A stretch of DNA of 64,000 bases from Natrarchaeobaculum aegyptiacum (GTDB lineage: Archaea > Halobacteriota > Halobacteria > Halobacteriales > Natrialbaceae): contig NZ_CP019893.1 of the NCBI RefSeq assembly GCF_002156705.1, forward strand, positions 62,001 through 126,000, written 5' to 3'. The translations under genes were made by a program, and so were the position numbers. Below the pieces are notes generated by a model. That model saw nothing but the letters and a program-made list of their open reading frames with translations, was not told where the DNA came from and ran no database searches. This document shows, piece by piece, positions 21,693-50,333 of this stretch (its first letter is position 1; each line of letters opens with the position of its first letter).

Positions 21693-23056
21693 GCACCAAG
21701 ACCCCCACCGAAGCCGACATCCTGCGACCGATTCAGAACACCTCGAAGAAGTACTTCCTGCTGTTCGGTGCCGCATCGCTTGCCTTTGCTATCTTCCTCG
21801 TGGGCTGGCTCTACCAGCTCCAGCAGGGGATGATCGTCACCGGTCTCTCCGACTGGGGATCCGGTGGCGGTGTCACGTGGGGACTGTACATCGGCGCGTT
21901 CATCTGGTGGGTCGGGATCGCCCACGGAGGGATCATCCTCTCTGCGGCAGTCCGCCTGCTCGGCATGGACCGTTACATGCCGGTTGCACGACTCGCAGAG
22001 ATGCTCACCCTCGCTGGCCTCTCGGCGGCTGGCTTCTACATCATCGTCCACATGGGCCGTCCCGACCGGATGGTCACCAGCATCGTTGGTCACTACTACA
22101 TCACGGTCAACAACTCGCCGCTCGTGTGGGACGTGACCGTCATCACGGCCTACTTCGTGTTGACGGCGACGTACCTCGGGCTGACGCTCCGGTACGACAT
22201 CACCCGACTGCGTGACCAGTTGCCGGACATGTTCGAGCCGGTTTACAAGATGATGACGATCGGCTACTCCGAGAAAGAAGACGAGGTCATCGAGCGGATG
22301 GTCTGGTGGGTCGCCCTCGCGATCATCATCATGGCTCCGCTCCTCCTCCACGGCGGTGTGATCCCGTGGCTGTTCGCCCTGCTGCCGACCTACCCGAGCT
22401 GGTTCGGCGGCATCCAGGGGCCGCAGTTCCTCACGATCGCGCTGACCTCCGCAATTTCCGGCGTGATCATCGTCTCCTACGCGTTCCGACGCGCGTACGA
22501 CTGGGACCACATCATCACCGACGACATCTTCCGTGGCCTGTTGCTGTGGCTGGGCTTTTTCTGCCTGCTGTTCCTCTGGCTGCAGCTCCAGCAGCTCACC
22601 ACGGGTAACTTCTTCCCGCCGGTCGACGCCCAGCCGTCCTCGGCGTCGAAGCTCTCCCACCCGATGTACGTCGTCCCGATGTTGATGGTCTTCGGCGTAC
22701 TCGCGTTCATCTTCGCGACGGTCCTCCGGCCGTCGCTGTTCACGAAGGCCCGCGCCATCGGCGCTGGTGTCCTCGTGCTGATCGCGACCCTCGTCGAGAA
22801 GACCTACTTCGTTCTCTCGGGCCTGTGGTACCCAACGTTCAGCATCTACGAGGCCACCCCCGGAGACTACTTCCCAAGCTGGATCGAGCTCTCCTCGATC
22901 CTGGGAACTATCGGCATGGTGACGCTGTTCTTCCTCGTGCTCGCCAAACTCGTGCCCGTGGTCGAACTCCACGCGATCGAACACCTGCGTGGCGACCACG
23001 GCCACGGTCACGACGAGCCAACTGACAGCGCAAGCGAGCAGGAGGTGAAAGCATGA
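21689..23056 (+). CDS. NrfD/PsrC-family integral membrane subunit
   Basis: This 455-residue polytopic protein of the NrfD/PsrC family has about ten helices. It begins at GTG 21689, overlapping the ferredoxin stop, and ends with a His/Asp-rich cytoplasmic tail (RGDHGHGHDEPTD). NrfD subunits bind quinone and exchange electrons with a partner ferredoxin, with or without proton movement. The 8-10-helix core includes WGLYIGAFIWWVGIAHGGI and LWYPTFSIYEATPGDY. It overlaps the following small membrane gene by 4 bp (ATGA). Confidence 0.9.
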   Translation: MSTKTPTEADILRPIQNTSKKYFLLFGAASLAFAIFLVGWLYQLQQGMIVTGLSDWGSGGGVTWGLYIGAFIWWVGIAHGGIILSAAVRLLGMDRYMPVARLAEMLTLAGLSAAGFYIIVHMGRPDRMVTSIVGHYYITVNNSPLVWDVTVITAYFVLTATYLGLTLRYDITRLRDQLPDMFEPVYKMMTIGYSEKEDEVIERMVWWVALAIIIMAPLLLHGGVIPWLFALLPTYPSWFGGIQGPQFLTIALTSAISGVIIVSYAFRRAYDWDHIITDDIFRGLLLWLGFFCLLFLWLQLQQLTTGNFFPPVDAQPSSASKLSHPMYVVPMLMVFGVLAFIFATVLRPSLFTKARAIGAGVLVLIATLVEKTYFVLSGLWYPTFSIYEATPGDYFPSWIELSSILGTIGMVTLFFLVLAKLVPVVELHAIEHLRGDHGHGHDEPTDSASEQEVKA

Positions 23057-23358
23057 GCCTGAGCGCAGCCGCACTCGAGTCCGTGCTCTACGCCGGCGTC
23101 GGCGGCACCGAAGGCCTGACCGGCTTCCCGAACATCGGGACCTACCTCATCTTCGGGGTTATCCTGGTGCCGGTGTACACGATGATCGTCGCCTGGTTCG
23201 TCGGCGAACCACGAGACACCAAGACGGCCGTCATGGGCGTCGTCTACCTCGTCGGGATCACTCTCGGCATGTGGGTGCCGATGTTCTTCCTGACCGTCAT
23301 CATCGGCATCGTCTTCTTCGGCGGCGCGCCGGAGCCGATCAGTTCACCCGGTCCGTAA
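23053..23358 (+). CDS. Small membrane protein, copy 1 of a tandem pair (101 aa)
   Basis: Three hydrophobic segments make up most of this 101-residue protein (LIFGVILVPVYTMIVAWFVG, VMGVVYLVGITLGMWVPMFF, TVIIGIVFFGG). It overlaps the NrfD gene by 4 bp, so it is translated with it and is probably a subunit of the same complex. It is about 70 percent identical by eye to the next gene over the core. No known family is recognised. Confidence 0.75.
   Translation: MSLSAAALESVLYAGVGGTEGLTGFPNIGTYLIFGVILVPVYTMIVAWFVGEPRDTKTAVMGVVYLVGITLGMWVPMFFLTVIIGIVFFGGAPEPISSPGP
23300..23340 (+). repeat. 41-bp direct repeat, copy 1
   Basis: This segment is identical to 23791-23831 and encodes the conserved C terminus of the paired small membrane proteins. 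Perfect identity including third codon positions suggests recent duplication or gene conversion. Confidence 0.8.
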
Positions 23359-23546
23359 CCCGGCCCACTGATCGACTCCAGCAACCGTACCCGAGCTACC
23401 GTTGGGACCTCGTCCGAACGCACGTGGTCCGCACTCCGTTCGTTCACCGATCCGATTTTCCGTCCGCTCTCGAGTGAGTCTCTCCTATAGCGTGCCTGCG
23501 TTCCCACGCACCAGCACCACCCCGGTACGAGGTGGAGTCGGCCAGC

Positions 23547-23852
23547 ATGAGCCTCACAGCGGATCTCGCGATGGTTCTTTACCATGGCTACGAGGGGACG
23601 GCGGGCCAGACTGGCTTCCCGAACACGGGGACGTGGTTGATCTTCGGCGTCGTCCTCGTACCGATCTACGTGATGGTCATCGCCTGGTTCACCGGCACGC
23701 CTCGAGACACCAGGACCGGGCTGATCGGCGTCACCTATCTCGTCGGACTGGTGACGTCGATGTGGGCGAGTATGTTCGTATTGACCGTCCTCATCGGCAT
23801 CGTCTTCTTCGGCGGCGCGCCGGAGCCGATCGGCCCGACGGGACCGACCTGA
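23547..23852 (+). CDS. Small membrane protein, copy 2 of a tandem pair (101 aa)
   Basis: This paralogue of the preceding gene shares GFPN.GT.LIFGV.LVP.Y, the loop PRDT and the C-terminal GIVFFGGAPEPI. The 3' ends share a perfect 41-bp repeat (23300-23340 and 23791-23831). The start MSLTADLAM at 23547 aligns with MSLSAAALE of copy 1; a start at 23532 is also open. About 190 bp separates it from copy 1, so it may have its own promoter. Confidence 0.75.
   Translation: MSLTADLAMVLYHGYEGTAGQTGFPNTGTWLIFGVVLVPIYVMVIAWFTGTPRDTRTGLIGVTYLVGLVTSMWASMFVLTVLIGIVFFGGAPEPIGPTGPT
23791..23831 (+). repeat. 41-bp direct repeat, copy 2
   Basis: This is the second copy of the repeat at 23300-23340, in the same reading frame within the paralogous gene. 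Confidence 0.8.
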
Positions 23853-25443: not shown

Positions 25444-25706
25444 GTTCGCCTCGCTCGATAGCCCGGGACGTACCGTCGTCCGTGAACTGGTTCTCCCGCC
25501 GCTCTGTAGCGCGATCCTACCGCGTTCGAGCGGCGGCGACGTCCCGATTTCCGGAGTGTGCGGTCGTCGAGCGCGCGTTCTGGTTGTAGGCCCGAGTTCC
25601 GGCCGACCGGAACTCCAGGCTCGTCCGTGATCGCGTGGCACCCGGAGTGCAAATGGTGCGGTTAACAAAGCGACCGGAGTCGCGTACCCTCGAGTCGGGA
25701 AACCAC

Positions 25707-26885
25707 ATGGAGGGTGCTGACGAACCGGACGTCGACGATGCTGGCTCGCGTGGTGGCGTCGATGGCGATAGCGGTGCTGGTGCCGGGACCGACAGCGATG
25801 CCGACGCCGGTGCCGGTCCCGGCGCTGCTCCCGGCCCAGATTCGGGTGACGGACCCGGCTCGGGTCCGGCGGCAACGGGCGGTGTTGATTCCGGACCTGC
25901 TGGCCCACACACGCTCTGGACGGTCCTCACCATCGCGCTCGTCTTGCTCGCCTTCGGCGCGACCGTCGCGCTCGTCGCCCCCGAGTTCCTCGCGACACAG
26001 GATACCCAGTCACAGGACACAAACGAGGCTCTCGAGGTCGACGACGACGCCCTCGAGTCGGCCGCGGATGGGGTCGCCGATGACGACGGCGACGACGTGG
26101 CAGAGAACGGTCTCGAGACGGCGACGGTCGCCGACGACGACGGCGACGATGGAACCGAGAGTGACGACGCGGAATCGGCTGCCGATAGCGACGATGCAGC
26201 CGACGCCGAGGAGGACGACGGAGACGACGTTGACGACTCCGACGGCGAAGACGACGACAGCGGGTTCTTCGACACCCTGTTCGGGGACGATTCGGACGAC
26301 GAAGCCGAGGCGGACGAAGATGATTCCGACGGGGACGAGGCCGACGACGAGGCTGATGAGCAACAGGACACCGTCGACGAAGACGGTGACGGCGGTCCGT
26401 TCGATGACATCTTCAGTGACGATTCGGGCGACGAGTCGGAGAACGAATCAGCAGACGAGGGCCCCGGTGACGGCCCGCCAGACGAGCCCGGTGACGGCCC
26501 GCCAGACGAGCCCGGTGACGGCCCGCCGGGTGACGAGCCACAGGGCGACGGCCCGCCAGACGAGCCCGGTGATGGTCCGCCAGGTGACGAGCCACAGGGC
26601 GACGGCCCCGATGGTGAGGGACCGCCCGGGCAAGACCCGGGTGACCAACCGGGTGCCGACGGTGAACCCGACGACGAAGACGGCGCTGCCGAGACGGGTC
26701 CGGTCGAGGACGACGCCGAGGAGGCTGACCCGGTCGACGACTCCGGCGGCGAGCCTGCCGGTCCCGGTGACGACTCCGACGGCGGGCTCTTCGACGATGG
26801 CCCCGACGACGACGGCGTCGCAGACGACCCTGCGGAGGACGTGATCGACGGCATCGACGAGGTCCTCGAGGACGCACTCGGCTGA
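25707..26885 (+). CDS. Very acidic, repeat-rich single-span membrane protein
   Basis: This 392-residue protein has a disordered Gly/Asp/Ala/Pro N terminus (1-67), one hydrophobic helix (about 69-91, TLWTVLTIALVLLAFGATVA) and a C-terminal region of about 300 residues that is mostly Asp, Glu, Gly and Pro. It contains recurrent FFDTLFGDDS, PFDDIFSDDS and GLFDDGPDDD patches and an exact PPDEPGDG repeat block. It ends with a short helix (DVIDGIDEVLEDALG). I do not recognise it. It may be an anchored surface or cytoplasmic low-complexity protein. The start is uncertain, with in-frame ATGs at 25635 and 25653. Confidence 0.65.
   Translation: MEGADEPDVDDAGSRGGVDGDSGAGAGTDSDADAGAGPGAAPGPDSGDGPGSGPAATGGVDSGPAGPHTLWTVLTIALVLLAFGATVALVAPEFLATQDTQSQDTNEALEVDDDALESAADGVADDDGDDVAENGLETATVADDDGDDGTESDDAESAADSDDAADAEEDDGDDVDDSDGEDDDSGFFDTLFGDDSDDEAEADEDDSDGDEADDEADEQQDTVDEDGDGGPFDDIFSDDSGDESENESADEGPGDGPPDEPGDGPPDEPGDGPPGDEPQGDGPPDEPGDGPPGDEPQGDGPDGEGPPGQDPGDQPGADGEPDDEDGAAETGPVEDDAEEADPVDDSGGEPAGPGDDSDGGLFDDGPDDDGVADDPAEDVIDGIDEVLEDALG
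26466..26625 (+). repeat. Tandem 24-bp repeats inside the acidic protein gene
   Basis: A 24-bp unit encoding GDGPPDEP-type residues is perfect at 26466-26489 and 26490-26513. It is followed by a longer alternation with a PPGDEPQGDG unit that is also near-perfectly repeated up to about 26615. Such repeats are prone to copy-number change. Confidence 0.75.
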
Positions 26886-27011
26886 GGGACGCGCCACGCG
26901 AGACGCTTCTCCGGGCGATCCCGTCTGTCCGGCTGTTGCTCGAGTGTGGTCCTGAGCCCGCTCGAGGTGCGGACGAAGGGTTCGACGGGTTCGTATCGAA
27001 GATATTTCAAT

Positions 27012-27023
27012 AGATATAAATCT
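27012..27023 (+). promoter_or_regulatory. AT-rich promoter-like box before the hairpin array
   Basis: tagatataaatc is an isolated AT-rich stretch after the acidic-protein gene. A TATA box here would start a + strand transcript near 27045, just before three tandem hairpins. Confidence 0.4.
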
Positions 27024-27040
27024 CTACTTGGTGAATAAGA

Positions 27041-27140
27041 GCCCGGAAGTCAGCTCCGAGCCGACGCGGGGACGTGCGCCGAAACGTCCCAGGTGTAAGG
27101 GCACCTGAGACTGGCTTCCATAGCGACCTATGCAAGCCAT
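27041..27140 (+). ncRNA. Candidate structured RNA: three tandem hairpins
   Basis: Three adjacent inverted repeats are visible: GGGACGT/ACGTCCC (27069-27075 with 27084-27090, 8-nt loop), CAGGTG/CACCTG (27090-27095 with 27102-27107, 6-nt loop) and GGCTT-c-CATAG/CTATG-c-AAGCC (27113-27123 with 27128-27138, CGAC loop). A weaker CGGA/TCCG pair precedes them near 27045. It could be a small RNA, a structured leader of the small gene downstream, or a mobile-element relic. No known RNA family is recognised. Confidence 0.4.
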
Positions 27141-27356
27141 GTTCCAGTTCCTGCTTCCGAAATATAAACGTCTCGCACGACGAGCGTATCGCTTCCTGAT
27201 CGACACGGTCCTCGACGTCGGCGGGCGACCAGCCCGGCCGCTGTTTCGGGGATACGCTGCCGTTCGAGAGCCACCAGCAGTCGGTGACCCCGAGCGCCTG
27301 CGACCTCGCCAGCGCGGAGATGGCCGGCGACCACACGGCCACCGGAGGCGACGACG
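27130..27356 (+). pseudogene. Coding-like sequence that changes frame (possible broken gene)
   Basis: From ATG 27130 the frame reads MQAMFQFLLPKYKRL and RFLIDTVLDVGG, then turns Arg-rich. From about 27214 a second frame (one base later) has almost all codons ending in G or C and acidic haloarchaeal composition (CFGDTLPFESHQQSV, DLASAEMAGDHTATGGDDD) but no start codon and no stop before about 27517. At 27357 a third frame takes over. Two frameshifts in one decayed gene, or sequencing errors, would explain this. An antisense ORF (27007-27342) shares the GC bias but is Trp/Ser-rich and less convincing. Confidence 0.35.
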
Positions 27357-27533
27357 ATGAGCGGTGGCTGTTTCTGGGCCGACGACCCGTTCGCGCTCCC
27401 CGAAGACGACCCGGACGCTACCCCATGTCCAACCTGTGGGACGCCGATCGAGGCTCTCGGGACCGCAGACCCGGACCAGCACGTCGCAGTCCCCTGTGGC
27501 TGTCCGGTTCCGGGTGACGTCCTCGAGGGGTAG
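27357..27533 (+). CDS. Small Cys-rich protein (58 aa), zinc-ribbon-like
   Basis: The product begins MSGGCFWADDPFALPEDDPD and contains CPTCG (about residues 25-29) and CGC (about 48-50), consistent with a zinc ribbon. Codon bias is good. It could be an independent small gene (ATG overlapping a TGA in the preceding frame) or the 3' end of the frameshifted sequence just upstream. Confidence 0.5.
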   Translation: MSGGCFWADDPFALPEDDPDATPCPTCGTPIEALGTADPDQHVAVPCGCPVPGDVLEG

Positions 27534-27715
27534 TCTCGACCCCGCTACCCAGAAACGACCGACACGGTGTCTCGTTTCGATGATGGGGTCGGGGTGACGT
27601 CTTCATTCCACCGACAGGAAAACGCTTCCGCCACTTGTTCCACGTCCGACGTCGTCAGGCCAGACCGTCACTCGAGGCCGATGTGGTTTTCACGGCAGGT
27701 CACCGAGTAACGGGT

Positions 27716-28396
27716 GTGTTTACGACCGTCGGAACCCTCCTCGCGGGGGCGGTTTTCGGACTCGCACTCGCGGCTCCACCGGGGCCGATGAACGCCATCA
27801 TCGCCGAGGAGAGCGTCCTCCGGGGGTGGCCCGCGGGCTTCAGGGCCGGCCTCGGGGCGATGGCTGCGGACGTCCTCTTCTTCGTGGGGACGCTCGCTGG
27901 CGTCGTCACCCTCGTCGATCGCTACCCGCCGGTGCGGCCGGCGCTGTACCTCGCGGGCGGCCTCCTGATGCTGTACTTCGCCGTTGGGGCGGTCCAGGAA
28001 GTACGGGCGGCCGCGTCGTTCACCGACGGCGGCACCACCACGGGGTCGGGCTTCCGGAAGACCTTCGCGCTCTCGCTGACCAATCCCTACCAGATCGGAT
28101 TCTGGGTCACTGCTGGTGTGGGCCTGCTCGAGGCCGGTCGCCTCGACGTGTTCTCGTATCTCCCGGCGGTCGGTGAGGCGCTGGCAGGGACGCTCGTCGT
28201 CCAGACCGGGTCGCCGACGCTGTTGCTCGGCTTCTTCGCCGGGATCGCGATCTGGATCGTTACCTATCCGGCCGCACTGGTCGCCGCAGGGAGGCGCGTC
28301 GACGCCATGGCACCCGTCGTCGCCGCCCTGAGCGCGCTCGTGCTGGTCGGCTTCGGCCTGCTCTTCCTCGGGATGGGACTCGTCGCGGTGGCGTGA
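27716..28396 (+). CDS. LysE/RhtB-family exporter
   Basis: This membrane protein of 226 residues has six hydrophobic segments and the family N-terminal pattern GLALAAPPGPMNAII, followed by GFRAGLGAMAADVLFF and the mid-protein SLTNPYQIGFW motif. LysE-type proteins export amino acids or other small solutes. GTG 27716 (VFTTVGTLL) was chosen to begin at the first helix; the frame is open to 27635 with non-conserved residues. Confidence 0.85.
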   Translation: MFTTVGTLLAGAVFGLALAAPPGPMNAIIAEESVLRGWPAGFRAGLGAMAADVLFFVGTLAGVVTLVDRYPPVRPALYLAGGLLMLYFAVGAVQEVRAAASFTDGGTTTGSGFRKTFALSLTNPYQIGFWVTAGVGLLEAGRLDVFSYLPAVGEALAGTLVVQTGSPTLLLGFFAGIAIWIVTYPAALVAAGRRVDAMAPVVAALSALVLVGFGLLFLGMGLVAVA

Positions 28397-45199: not shown

Positions 45200-46672
<1,473 letters not shown>

Positions 46673-46683
46673 ACAGACCGGGA

Positions 46684-46700
46684 TCAGGGCGACGCCCTGA
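46684..46700 (+). other. Hairpin immediately after 16S rRNA
   Basis: TCAGGGC-gac-GCCCTGA forms a 7-bp stem with a 3-nt loop 11 nt after the 16S 3' end, inside the BHB-processed precursor. Confidence 0.5.
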
Positions 46701-46734
46701 CCCACCTAAAGTCGTGGCCTGACGGGCCGCGCAC

Positions 46735-46793
46735 TCCACGTTCGATCGACCCACCGTTGGCCGATCGGGCACCTTTGAACTACCAAGGCTAAC
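46735..46793 (+). other. 16S processing stem, 3' strand (bulge-helix-bulge)
   Basis: This is the partner of 45077-45136; it contains CACC-TTT-GAAC, in which TTT is the 3-nt bulge cut by the tRNA/rRNA splicing endonuclease. It lies between the 16S gene and tRNA-Ala. Confidence 0.85.
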
Positions 46794-46835
46794 GCAAGCT
46801 CCCTCGCCCGACCGATGGTGGTCGGGGCGAGGGAT

Positions 46836-46907
46836 GGGCCCATAGCTCAGTGGGAGAGTGCCTCCTTTGCAAGGAGGATGCCCTGGGTTCGAATCCCAGT
46901 GGGTCCA
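46836..46907 (+). tRNA. tRNA-Ala (anticodon TGC)
   Basis: The 72-nt cloverleaf has acceptor GGGCCCA/TGGGTCC with discriminator A, D arm TAGCTCAGTGGGAGAG, anticodon stem CCTCC/GGAGG around TTTGCAA (anticodon TGC) and T arm CTGGG-TTCGAAT-CCCAG. CCA is not encoded. The position between 16S and 23S is the usual archaeal location. Confidence 0.97.
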
Positions 46908-46936
46908 TGTCTCGGAGCGAATCGAGATCCGTGCCC

Positions 46937-46945
46937 TTAAGTGTG
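46937..46945 (+). promoter_or_regulatory. Promoter-like box in the tRNA-Ala/23S spacer
   Basis: CTTAAGTGT sits in a block nearly identical to the upstream P3 region, including the following CAGGGGACTCTGAT. It could start extra 23S/5S transcripts near 46970. Confidence 0.5.
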
Positions 46946-47059
46946 GCAGGGGACTCTGATTCAATCCGAACGCAAACCGATGCACCACCTCGCGCAAGCG
47001 GAGGTGGGAAGGGTTGATGCAGCCCCGTTTGTCAGCGGGGGTGCGGATGAGACCGTGTG

Positions 47060-47099
47060 TACGTGTAGTCCAGGCGTCCACTGGACCCGTTCCCGGGTC
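47060..47099 (+). other. 23S processing stem, 5' strand (bulge-helix-bulge)
   Basis: 47060-47073 pairs perfectly with 50096-50109. GCGT (47074-47077) pairs with ACGC (50089-50092), with bulges CCA (47078-47080) and AAA (50093-50095). 47081-47099 pairs with 50070-50088 with one mismatch. This is a canonical BHB motif releasing pre-23S RNA. Confidence 0.88.
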
Positions 47100-47134
47100 A
47101 CAATCGTTGCATCTGCAACGTCGATCCGATGAAC

Positions 47135-50046
<2,912 letters not shown>

Positions 50047-50069
50047 CATACTACAACGCATCTGGATCG

Positions 50070-50109
50070 GACCCGAGAACGGGTCCAGACGCAAACTGGA
50101 CTACACGTA
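50070..50109 (+). other. 23S processing stem, 3' strand (bulge-helix-bulge)
   Basis: This is the partner strand of 47060-47099. Cleavage in the AAA bulge (50093-50095) would free the 23S 3' end and leave the 5S part of the transcript. Confidence 0.88.
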
Positions 50110-50151
50110 GACGCGGTTTCTGAGTACGCAGCATGTCGTACCACCGGACGA

Positions 50152-50190
50152 CCGATACTGGTATCATCACGGTTCGAATCCGTGAATCGG
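50152..50190 (+). other. tRNA-like element (t-element) before 5S rRNA
   Basis: An acceptor-like stem CCGAT (50152-50156)/ATCGG (50186-50190) encloses a T-arm-like hairpin CACGG-TTCGAAT-CCGTG (50168-50184). A similar mini-tRNA structure upstream of 5S rRNA in Haloferax volcanii is reported to direct tRNase Z cleavage at the 5S 5' end. Confidence 0.75.
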
Positions 50191-50192
50191 CG

Positions 50193-50314
50193 TTACGGCG
50201 GCCAGAGCGGCGGGGTACCTCCCGTACCCGTTCCGAACACGGAAGATAAGCCCGCCTGCGTATCGGCAACTACTGGAGTGGGAGACCCTCTGGGAACGTC
50301 GATTCGCCGCCGAC
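50193..50314 (+). rRNA. 5S ribosomal RNA
   Basis: The 122-nt haloarchaeal-type 5S has GGCGGCCAGAGCGG at the start, CCCGTACCCGTTCCGAACACGG, GATAAGCCCGCCTGCG and a closing CGCCGCCG that pairs with GGCGGC at the 5' end. It immediately follows the tRNA-like element. Ends are approximate. Confidence 0.95.
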
Positions 50315-50333
50315 TCCTCATACTTCATTCACA

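Follow-up and report, generated by a model that had tools for sequence, protein, structure and literature searches.

What is the function of three closely spaced inverted repeats that lie between a TATA-like box and a small gene on a haloarchaeal chromosome? They occur in a window of 64,000 nucleotides (G000:C1:62001-126000), part of a 3.93-Mb chromosome, and a preliminary description had proposed a new structured RNA at this place: a free small RNA, a leader of the downstream small gene, or a relic of a MITE-like element.

A predicted folded leader ahead of two small genes

The TATA-like box and all three inverted repeats are present where they had been placed. GGGACGT/ACGTCCC pairs at 7/7 positions (27069-27090) and CAGGTG/CACCTG at 6/6 (27090-27107), and the third repeat (27112-27139) is 92% complementary, with an internal loop between its stems. 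The three hairpins of the preliminary description are real, but its account was incomplete: it overlooked an outer helix (P1) that encloses the first two hairpins (P2 and P3), an apparent switch between alternative helices, and the start codon contained in the third hairpin (P4). The features of the window copy are as follows.

27015-27020, plus strand: TATA box TATAAA, promoter of the leader; 30 nt from its start to the start of P1
27045-27053, plus strand: P1 5′ strand GGAAGTCAG, near the expected RNA 5′ end; partner at 27111-27119
27070-27089, plus strand: P2 hairpin GGACGT/ACGTCC; loop ending in GAA, then A
27090-27107, plus strand: P3 hairpin CAGGTG/CACCTG; AGAC directly after its 3′ side
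27111-27119, plus strand: shared middle strand CTGGCTTCC, the P1 3′ strand; 27112-27117 doubles as the P4 5′ strand
27112-27139, plus strand: P4 hairpin TGGCTT/AAGCCA with inner stem ATAG/CTAT; includes the A of the ORF1 start codon
27139-27360, plus strand: ORF1, basic protein of 73 aa beginning MFQFLLPKYKRLARR
27158-27175, plus strand: P5, CGAAAT-ATAAAC-GTCTCG, within ORF1; one mismatch in the window copy
27357-27533, plus strand: ORF2, acidic zinc-ribbon-like protein of 58 aa (CPTCG...PCGC); start ATG and ORF1 stop share the overlap ATGA

Immediately before the leader, an ORF at 25635-26885 encodes a highly acidic protein that contains extended stretches of Asp/Glu as well as GDGPPDEP-like repeats. 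Further upstream, two adjacent ORFs of about 100 aa (23053-23358 and 23532-23852) encode similar hydrophobic sequences ending in GGAPEPI, an apparent tandem duplication. An ORF for a LysE-type transporter (27635-28396) follows the element, and one of the same kind (APPGPMNAIIAEESV...) follows the copies in loci L070 and L088; the LysE-adjacent site may be an old locus common to all three. The window also holds a complete rRNA operon at 45200-50315 (16S, tRNA-Ala(TGC), 23S and 5S).

Searches of Rfam 15 recovered only rRNA and tRNA from the window, with no match to the element at thresholds, and a single tRNA from 20 distant loci carrying the leader. When E values up to 10 were allowed for the element region, the best hit was mir-455, at 17.3 bits against a threshold of 70. 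The earlier statement that no known RNA family is recognizable, and that this is a candidate new structured RNA, thus agrees with the gathering-threshold results for the window and the 20 loci. No description of the leader was found among the open-access papers searched.

Conservation and covariation of the leader

The preliminary description held that such a density of stems is unlikely to be accidental. Folded as a single sequence, the element stands out only moderately (z = -2.3 for 27020-27145, z = -2.8 for 27036-27140), and a count of 72-nt stretches with three disjoint perfect 6-bp hairpins picked out two places elsewhere in the window but passed over 27012-27140, because its third hairpin has an internal loop. 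The density argument is therefore weak by itself. The step beyond chance is conservation: four strong copies in the genome itself, 54 aligned copies, and double-sided changes far in excess of shuffles.

The four strong matches in the genome are the window copy and three others at 73-82% identity. A 541-base query found matches in 42 of 61 genomes, many of them short and elsewhere in the query. Alignment A3 contains 54 copies recovered by regular expression from the window and 60 fetched stretches, the loci having been chosen by resemblance to the window sequence and the expression built on P3, the P1 3′ strand and GCCATG. RNAalifold yields P1, P2 and P3 from this alignment. Covariation was scored on a structure of 33 pairs comprising P1 with an extension, a trial pseudoknot, P2, P3 and P5. 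Double-sided changes occur in 14 of the 33 pairs (7.1 in shuffles) and in 52 cells (16.6 in shuffles), values that 0/500 shuffles reached in either case, and 90.6% of the cells in the structure are paired, compared with 24-43% when the partner is slid by 1-3 columns.

The clearest covariation support is for P2, with double-sided change in 4/5 pairs across the 54 copies, and for P3, in which 99.7% of cells are paired and 3/6 pairs change on both sides, each from a single sequence. P1 is paired in 98.1% of cells. The trial pseudoknot would join the P2 loop to bases preceding P2; it is paired in 65% of cells, with some double change in all four pairs. Compensatory changes in relatives, whose absence the preliminary description would have taken as evidence against a structured RNA, are thus present.

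Promoter geometry is conserved as well. The distance from the start of the TATA box to the first base of P1 is 30 nt in 44 of the 52 copies measured (two more lack a TATA box by the rule used), and from this spacing transcription probably starts at P1 or a few nucleotides upstream. The TATA region itself (27009-27026, and in other copies such as L043) is often an imperfect palindrome-like sequence, a possible repressor operator.

Downstream of the start codon, P5 is paired in 91.7% of cells in A3, and one of its pairs is double-changed in 9/54 copies, being A-U in 37 copies and G-C in nine. These changes alter the encoded residues, and the constraint therefore acts on the nucleic acid. Among the 60 counted named copies with the heptamer AAACGTC, the distance to it from the ATG is 27 nt in 59. 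Such constraint could also reflect a convergent minus-strand promoter. Its TTTAT box would lie in P5, some 27 nt away from the start-codon complement, and its antisense RNA would control ORF1 by a logic like that of CopA/CopT. In A3, ATAAAC indeed hardly varies at any codon position, and it stands at a fixed distance from the ATG. However, the box, kept in most own-family copies, is absent from most distant copies examined and reads CAAAAAGG in L083, L084 and L086, so the antisense explanation loses weight; moreover, one P5 pair is of the G-U type in 16/54 copies, a pairing that is tolerated in an RNA hairpin but not in a DNA palindrome. We regard antisense control as quite improbable.

Predicted translational coupling of ORF1 and ORF2

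The proposal that the element is a leader of the downstream small gene fits what is seen in its copies, where it is tied to a small ORF with its start codon inside the third hairpin. The conserved start of ORF1 is 27139 and not the in-frame ATG at 27130. A downstream ORF of the CxxC...PCGC type is present in 32/54 copies of A3, and in 30 of these 32 its start overlaps or falls a few bases before the ORF1 stop (25 at -1, four at -5, one at -8). A wider regular-expression set comprised 157 unique copies, 142 of them evaluable after 15 were dropped for having no start or less than 700 nt downstream. A coupled ORF follows in 101/142, encoding an acidic protein with two Cys pairs in 92 and another acidic protein in nine; in the other 41/142, no coupled ORF2 was found under the criteria used. 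Two of the nine were tested and are weakly HalOD1-like, below the Pfam cut-off. Among the 92 copies with the two-Cys-pair ORF, ORF1 varies from 28 to 116 aa and the junction is kept, for which reason we take ORF1 to be translated. A free small RNA, one of the options first considered, would leave this coupling unexplained.

C-P-x-C and P-C-G-C are invariant in 30 ORF2 sequences. Zinc-ribbon matches to Pfam/NCBIfam are weak and below cut-off, and a profile search of the PDB gave short zinc-finger matches only (best E 2.2e-5 over 21 positions). In Halovivax asiaticus, seven loci (L179, L187, L194, L196, L200, L230 and L234) encode closely similar ORF1 proteins of 46-50 aa, and in this species ORF1 may be conserved as a small protein in its own right, judging from these sequences. 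A reverse-strand reading frame through the leader was considered and rejected, as frames and lengths differ between copies.

A strand shared by two exclusive helices

TGGCTT in the P1 3′ strand also pairs with AAGCCA at 27134-27139, the last base of which is the A of the ORF1 start codon. P1 and P4 are mutually exclusive through this common strand, 27112-27117. Within the own family (A3), the P4 core has no double-sided change and P1 is double-sided in one cell only; with the arms nearly invariant there, the test of a switch depends on comparison between subtypes and families.

Across subtypes the three strands differ jointly, being GGAAGCC/GGCTTCC with AAGCC-ATG in one subtype, AGACCGGTG/CACCGGTCT with AAGACC-ATG in a second, and TGGGAAC/GTTCCCA with AACCC-ATG in a third. 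For 20 representatives hand-picked to cover the subtypes, the best P1 partner has no mismatch in 16 and one mismatch in four, and P4 has one or two mismatches over 6-7 nt in 15. The mean pairing of the start arm is 5.95/7 within its own copy, against 5.22 with arms swapped between copies and 4.54 with shuffled upstream sequence, and it is at least 6 in 15/20 representatives compared with 6.9% of shuffles. An inner P4 stem of at least 4 bp is found in 34/54 copies and 15.8% of shuffles.

Double-change tests were made on A3, on 20 leaders of genomes G311 and G385 (A7), and on 20 leaders of genes for SWIM proteins; for the Halorussus subtype the regular expression kept one copy only. P1 changes on both sides in 5/12 pairs of A7, although double changes over the A7 structure set that includes P4 do not exceed shuffles (297/500 as high). 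In the SWIM leaders, all change in P1 is one-sided (8/13 pairs), with no double-sided change and no excess over shuffles.

When either fold was enforced on the 54 copies, the energy difference between P1 and P4 averaged -2.0 kcal/mol (SD 3.3). The two folds lie within 5 kcal/mol in 39/54 copies, and P4 is favoured in 13, including the window copy; the RNAfold calculation takes no account of tertiary contacts or of the salt in haloarchaeal cells. Near-equal modelled energies are needed for a two-state switch and are not proof of one. They would also suit direct sensing of salt, temperature or magnesium by the two folds with no specific ligand, as in an RNA thermometer or osmosensor, and salt had a strong influence on how an engineered riboswitch switched in Haloferax volcanii, according to the available sections of PMC8241225. 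A simple sensor, however, needs no conserved P2 loop or P3 sequence, whereas these are conserved over 54 copies and let one model recognize copies in other families. Direct sensing is thus, in our estimate, unlikely.

The helices, the shared strand, the coupling of the ORFs and the spread of the element can be read directly from sequence. Three of these features taken together, namely the strand common to P1 and P4, where the start codon lies and the coupling of the ORFs, indicate control of translation initiation. Our main reading is that the leader is a cis-acting translational start-codon switch, whatever its signal, to which we assign a probability of roughly 0.7 from these sequence comparisons. 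In the putative ON fold, P1 would close the P2-P3 domain and leave the ORF1 start codon free. In the putative OFF fold, the P1 3′ strand would instead pair with the bases ending in the A of the AUG, forming P4 and blocking initiation. Ribosomes translating ORF1 would be carried into ORF2 through the ATGA overlap, and the output of the switch would be a small basic protein together with a zinc-ribbon protein. The competing explanations of the signal share the same anatomy, and the likelihood given to each is accordingly compatible with this statement.

Distribution and downstream genes

At E <= 0.001, the covariance model R1 has matches in 160 of the 392 relatives searched; 86 of these were assigned by eye to the own family and 74 to others; copy numbers from this search are lower bounds, because only seven candidates were scored per genome. 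Among 21 genomes hand-picked from the R1 results, 18 have matches at E <= 0.01, and the richest carry 19, 19, 18, 17, 14 and 8 copies. In a 246-genome sample of the phylum, 12 genomes have matches, all within the same order, and no match was found outside that order. The exact own-family pattern occurs in 113 named stretches, four of them without a start by the rule used, and the named genomes are, as we take their genus names to indicate, nearly all Natrialbaceae, the exception being Haloparvum sedimenti.

The genes next to the leader vary between copies. Distant copies stand before tyrosine integrases (L144, L146, L157 and L335), PadR regulators (L137, L140, L304 and L311) and SWIM proteins, and the same switch may operate ahead of these genes. 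The SWIM copies of Haladaptatus lack ORF1, and the SWIM start codon directly follows the start arm; 21 plasmid records together contain 83 places with sequence of this kind. Copies are present on plasmids of Natrinema, Halomontanus, Halopiger and Halorussus, where the records examined do not annotate them. One viral contig (L159) has a copy with the leader anatomy, and a phage search with L159 gave short unrelated matches only. The other five of six viral-contig pattern matches are without leader context and look like chance.

Several genomes carry the leader in distinctive arrangements. A 219-kb, plasmid-sized contig (G233:C7; L298-L304 and L307-L309) holds over a dozen copies, as if many operons of one replicon used a common switch. 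In G045, which has eight leader matches, a unit of about 1350 bp (L145, L155 and L294-L297) combines the leader and ORF1 with a coiled-coil protein of 296 aa; identity between L145 and L155 is 89%, and the unit is possibly a mobile cassette. In G311 and G385 (L278-L293 and L314-L317), the leader is followed by a small Cys-containing ORF and a coupled protein of 120-183 aa with CRPCQST/CRPCRST, one of which was tested and has no Pfam match.

Many dispersed copies, together with units of about 840-1350 bp that are present several times in G311 and G045, are what would be expected of a dispersed repeat, or of a mobile cassette, with hairpins that regulate nothing. The MITE-like relic considered at the outset nonetheless fits poorly, since promoter spacing, RNA and coupled ORFs are kept in most copies. 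Base pairs are maintained while copies diverge, as are the promoter spacing and the ORF overlap, and the LysE-like neighbour shared with L070 and L088 suggests old resident loci. We therefore consider a repeat of this kind highly improbable.

Possible signals of the proposed switch

The presence of a conserved core before unrelated genes suggests a small ligand, whose binding to the P1-P2-P3 domain would select P1. Two features expected of riboswitches are seen in the leader: a conserved folded domain with compensatory changes (in P2, P3 and, in A7, P1), and an expression platform exclusive with a helix of that domain, for which the shared strand, the joint subtype differences and the near-equal energies speak. 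We tentatively suggest, at clearly less than even odds, that the leader represents a previously undescribed haloarchaeal class of riboswitch, in which one aptamer domain responding to one common cellular signal would gate translation of small zinc-finger regulators, PadR regulators, SWIM proteins and integrases, by exposing or concealing their start codons, on chromosomes, megaplasmids and viruses, with up to about 19 copies per genome.

The signal could instead be a protein: the ORF1 or ORF2 products, or a host RNA-binding protein, might bind the P2/P3 domain or P5 in translational feedback. Small zinc ribbons are often nucleic-acid binders, as noted in the available text of PMC2253796, P5 is conserved inside the ORF1 coding region at rigid spacing, and ORF1 with a coupled ORF accompanies the RNA in 101/142 evaluable copies. 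Yet related leaders precede unrelated proteins (integrase, PadR and SWIM), and the RNA is kept in copies where no ORF2 was detected. Conversely, ORF2-family zinc-ribbon genes in G000 (L039, G000:C1:1540000-1555000, at about 6617 and 7375) have no R1 match in that stretch. We hold protein feedback to be rather doubtful.

A leader family present in 160/392 searched genomes, with a start-codon switch and coupled small ORFs, would add a common mode of RNA control, and would place integrases, plasmid genes and small zinc-finger regulators under a single signal. It would flag many small genes that are unannotated, and its natural sequence variants would be ready for use in a search for the ligand.

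Comparison with known systems

In the tap-repA region of plasmid R1, a structured leader, a short leader ORF and translational coupling are combined with an antisense RNA (CopA/CopT) as the signal. The leader described here shares the structured RNA, the short ORF and the coupling, whereas the antisense signal of that system is the weaker rival here.

The nearest published layout to ORF1-ORF2 is found in Halobacterium salinarum, where the available text of PMC3184054 and PMC2253796 describes Brz-Brb and bp4-OE2447F as pairs in which the ORF of a small acidic zinc-finger protein overlaps that of a small basic one. As in our locus, the basic ORF comes first in bp4-OE2447F: bp4 precedes OE2447F with a 7-bp overlap, and its transcript starts 134.5 bp upstream, leaving a long 5′ region (PMC3184054, in part). 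Overlap and charge in ORF1-ORF2 are as in those pairs. Unlike the published CPxCG motif, with its spacing of two to three residues, the second Cys pair of ORF2 is CxC (CGC) and not CxxC, and the available sections of the two papers make no mention of a structured leader or switch.

With translational riboswitches the leader has in common a conserved folded domain and a closing helix that competes with an initiation-hiding helix. It differs in that it has no Rfam match, masks the start codon itself, and places one design before many unrelated genes. According to the available sections of PMC8241225, the fluoride riboswitch of Thermococcus kodakarensis is the only experimentally determined natural riboswitch in archaea. 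The same sections describe the engineered theophylline riboswitch E of Haloferax volcanii, in which a hairpin masking the start codon and Shine-Dalgarno sequence works and is relieved by the aptamer; start-codon masking is therefore physically available to these cells. Riboswitch E, as far as it is described there, and the present leader share a start-codon-masking hairpin, but the former is engineered with a different aptamer and the natural leader has no obvious Shine-Dalgarno sequence right before the AUG. A translational RNA switch is thus a known kind of element, whereas the family itself, its use of the start codon in archaea, its coupling of leader and ORFs, and its many copies before different genes appear to be new.
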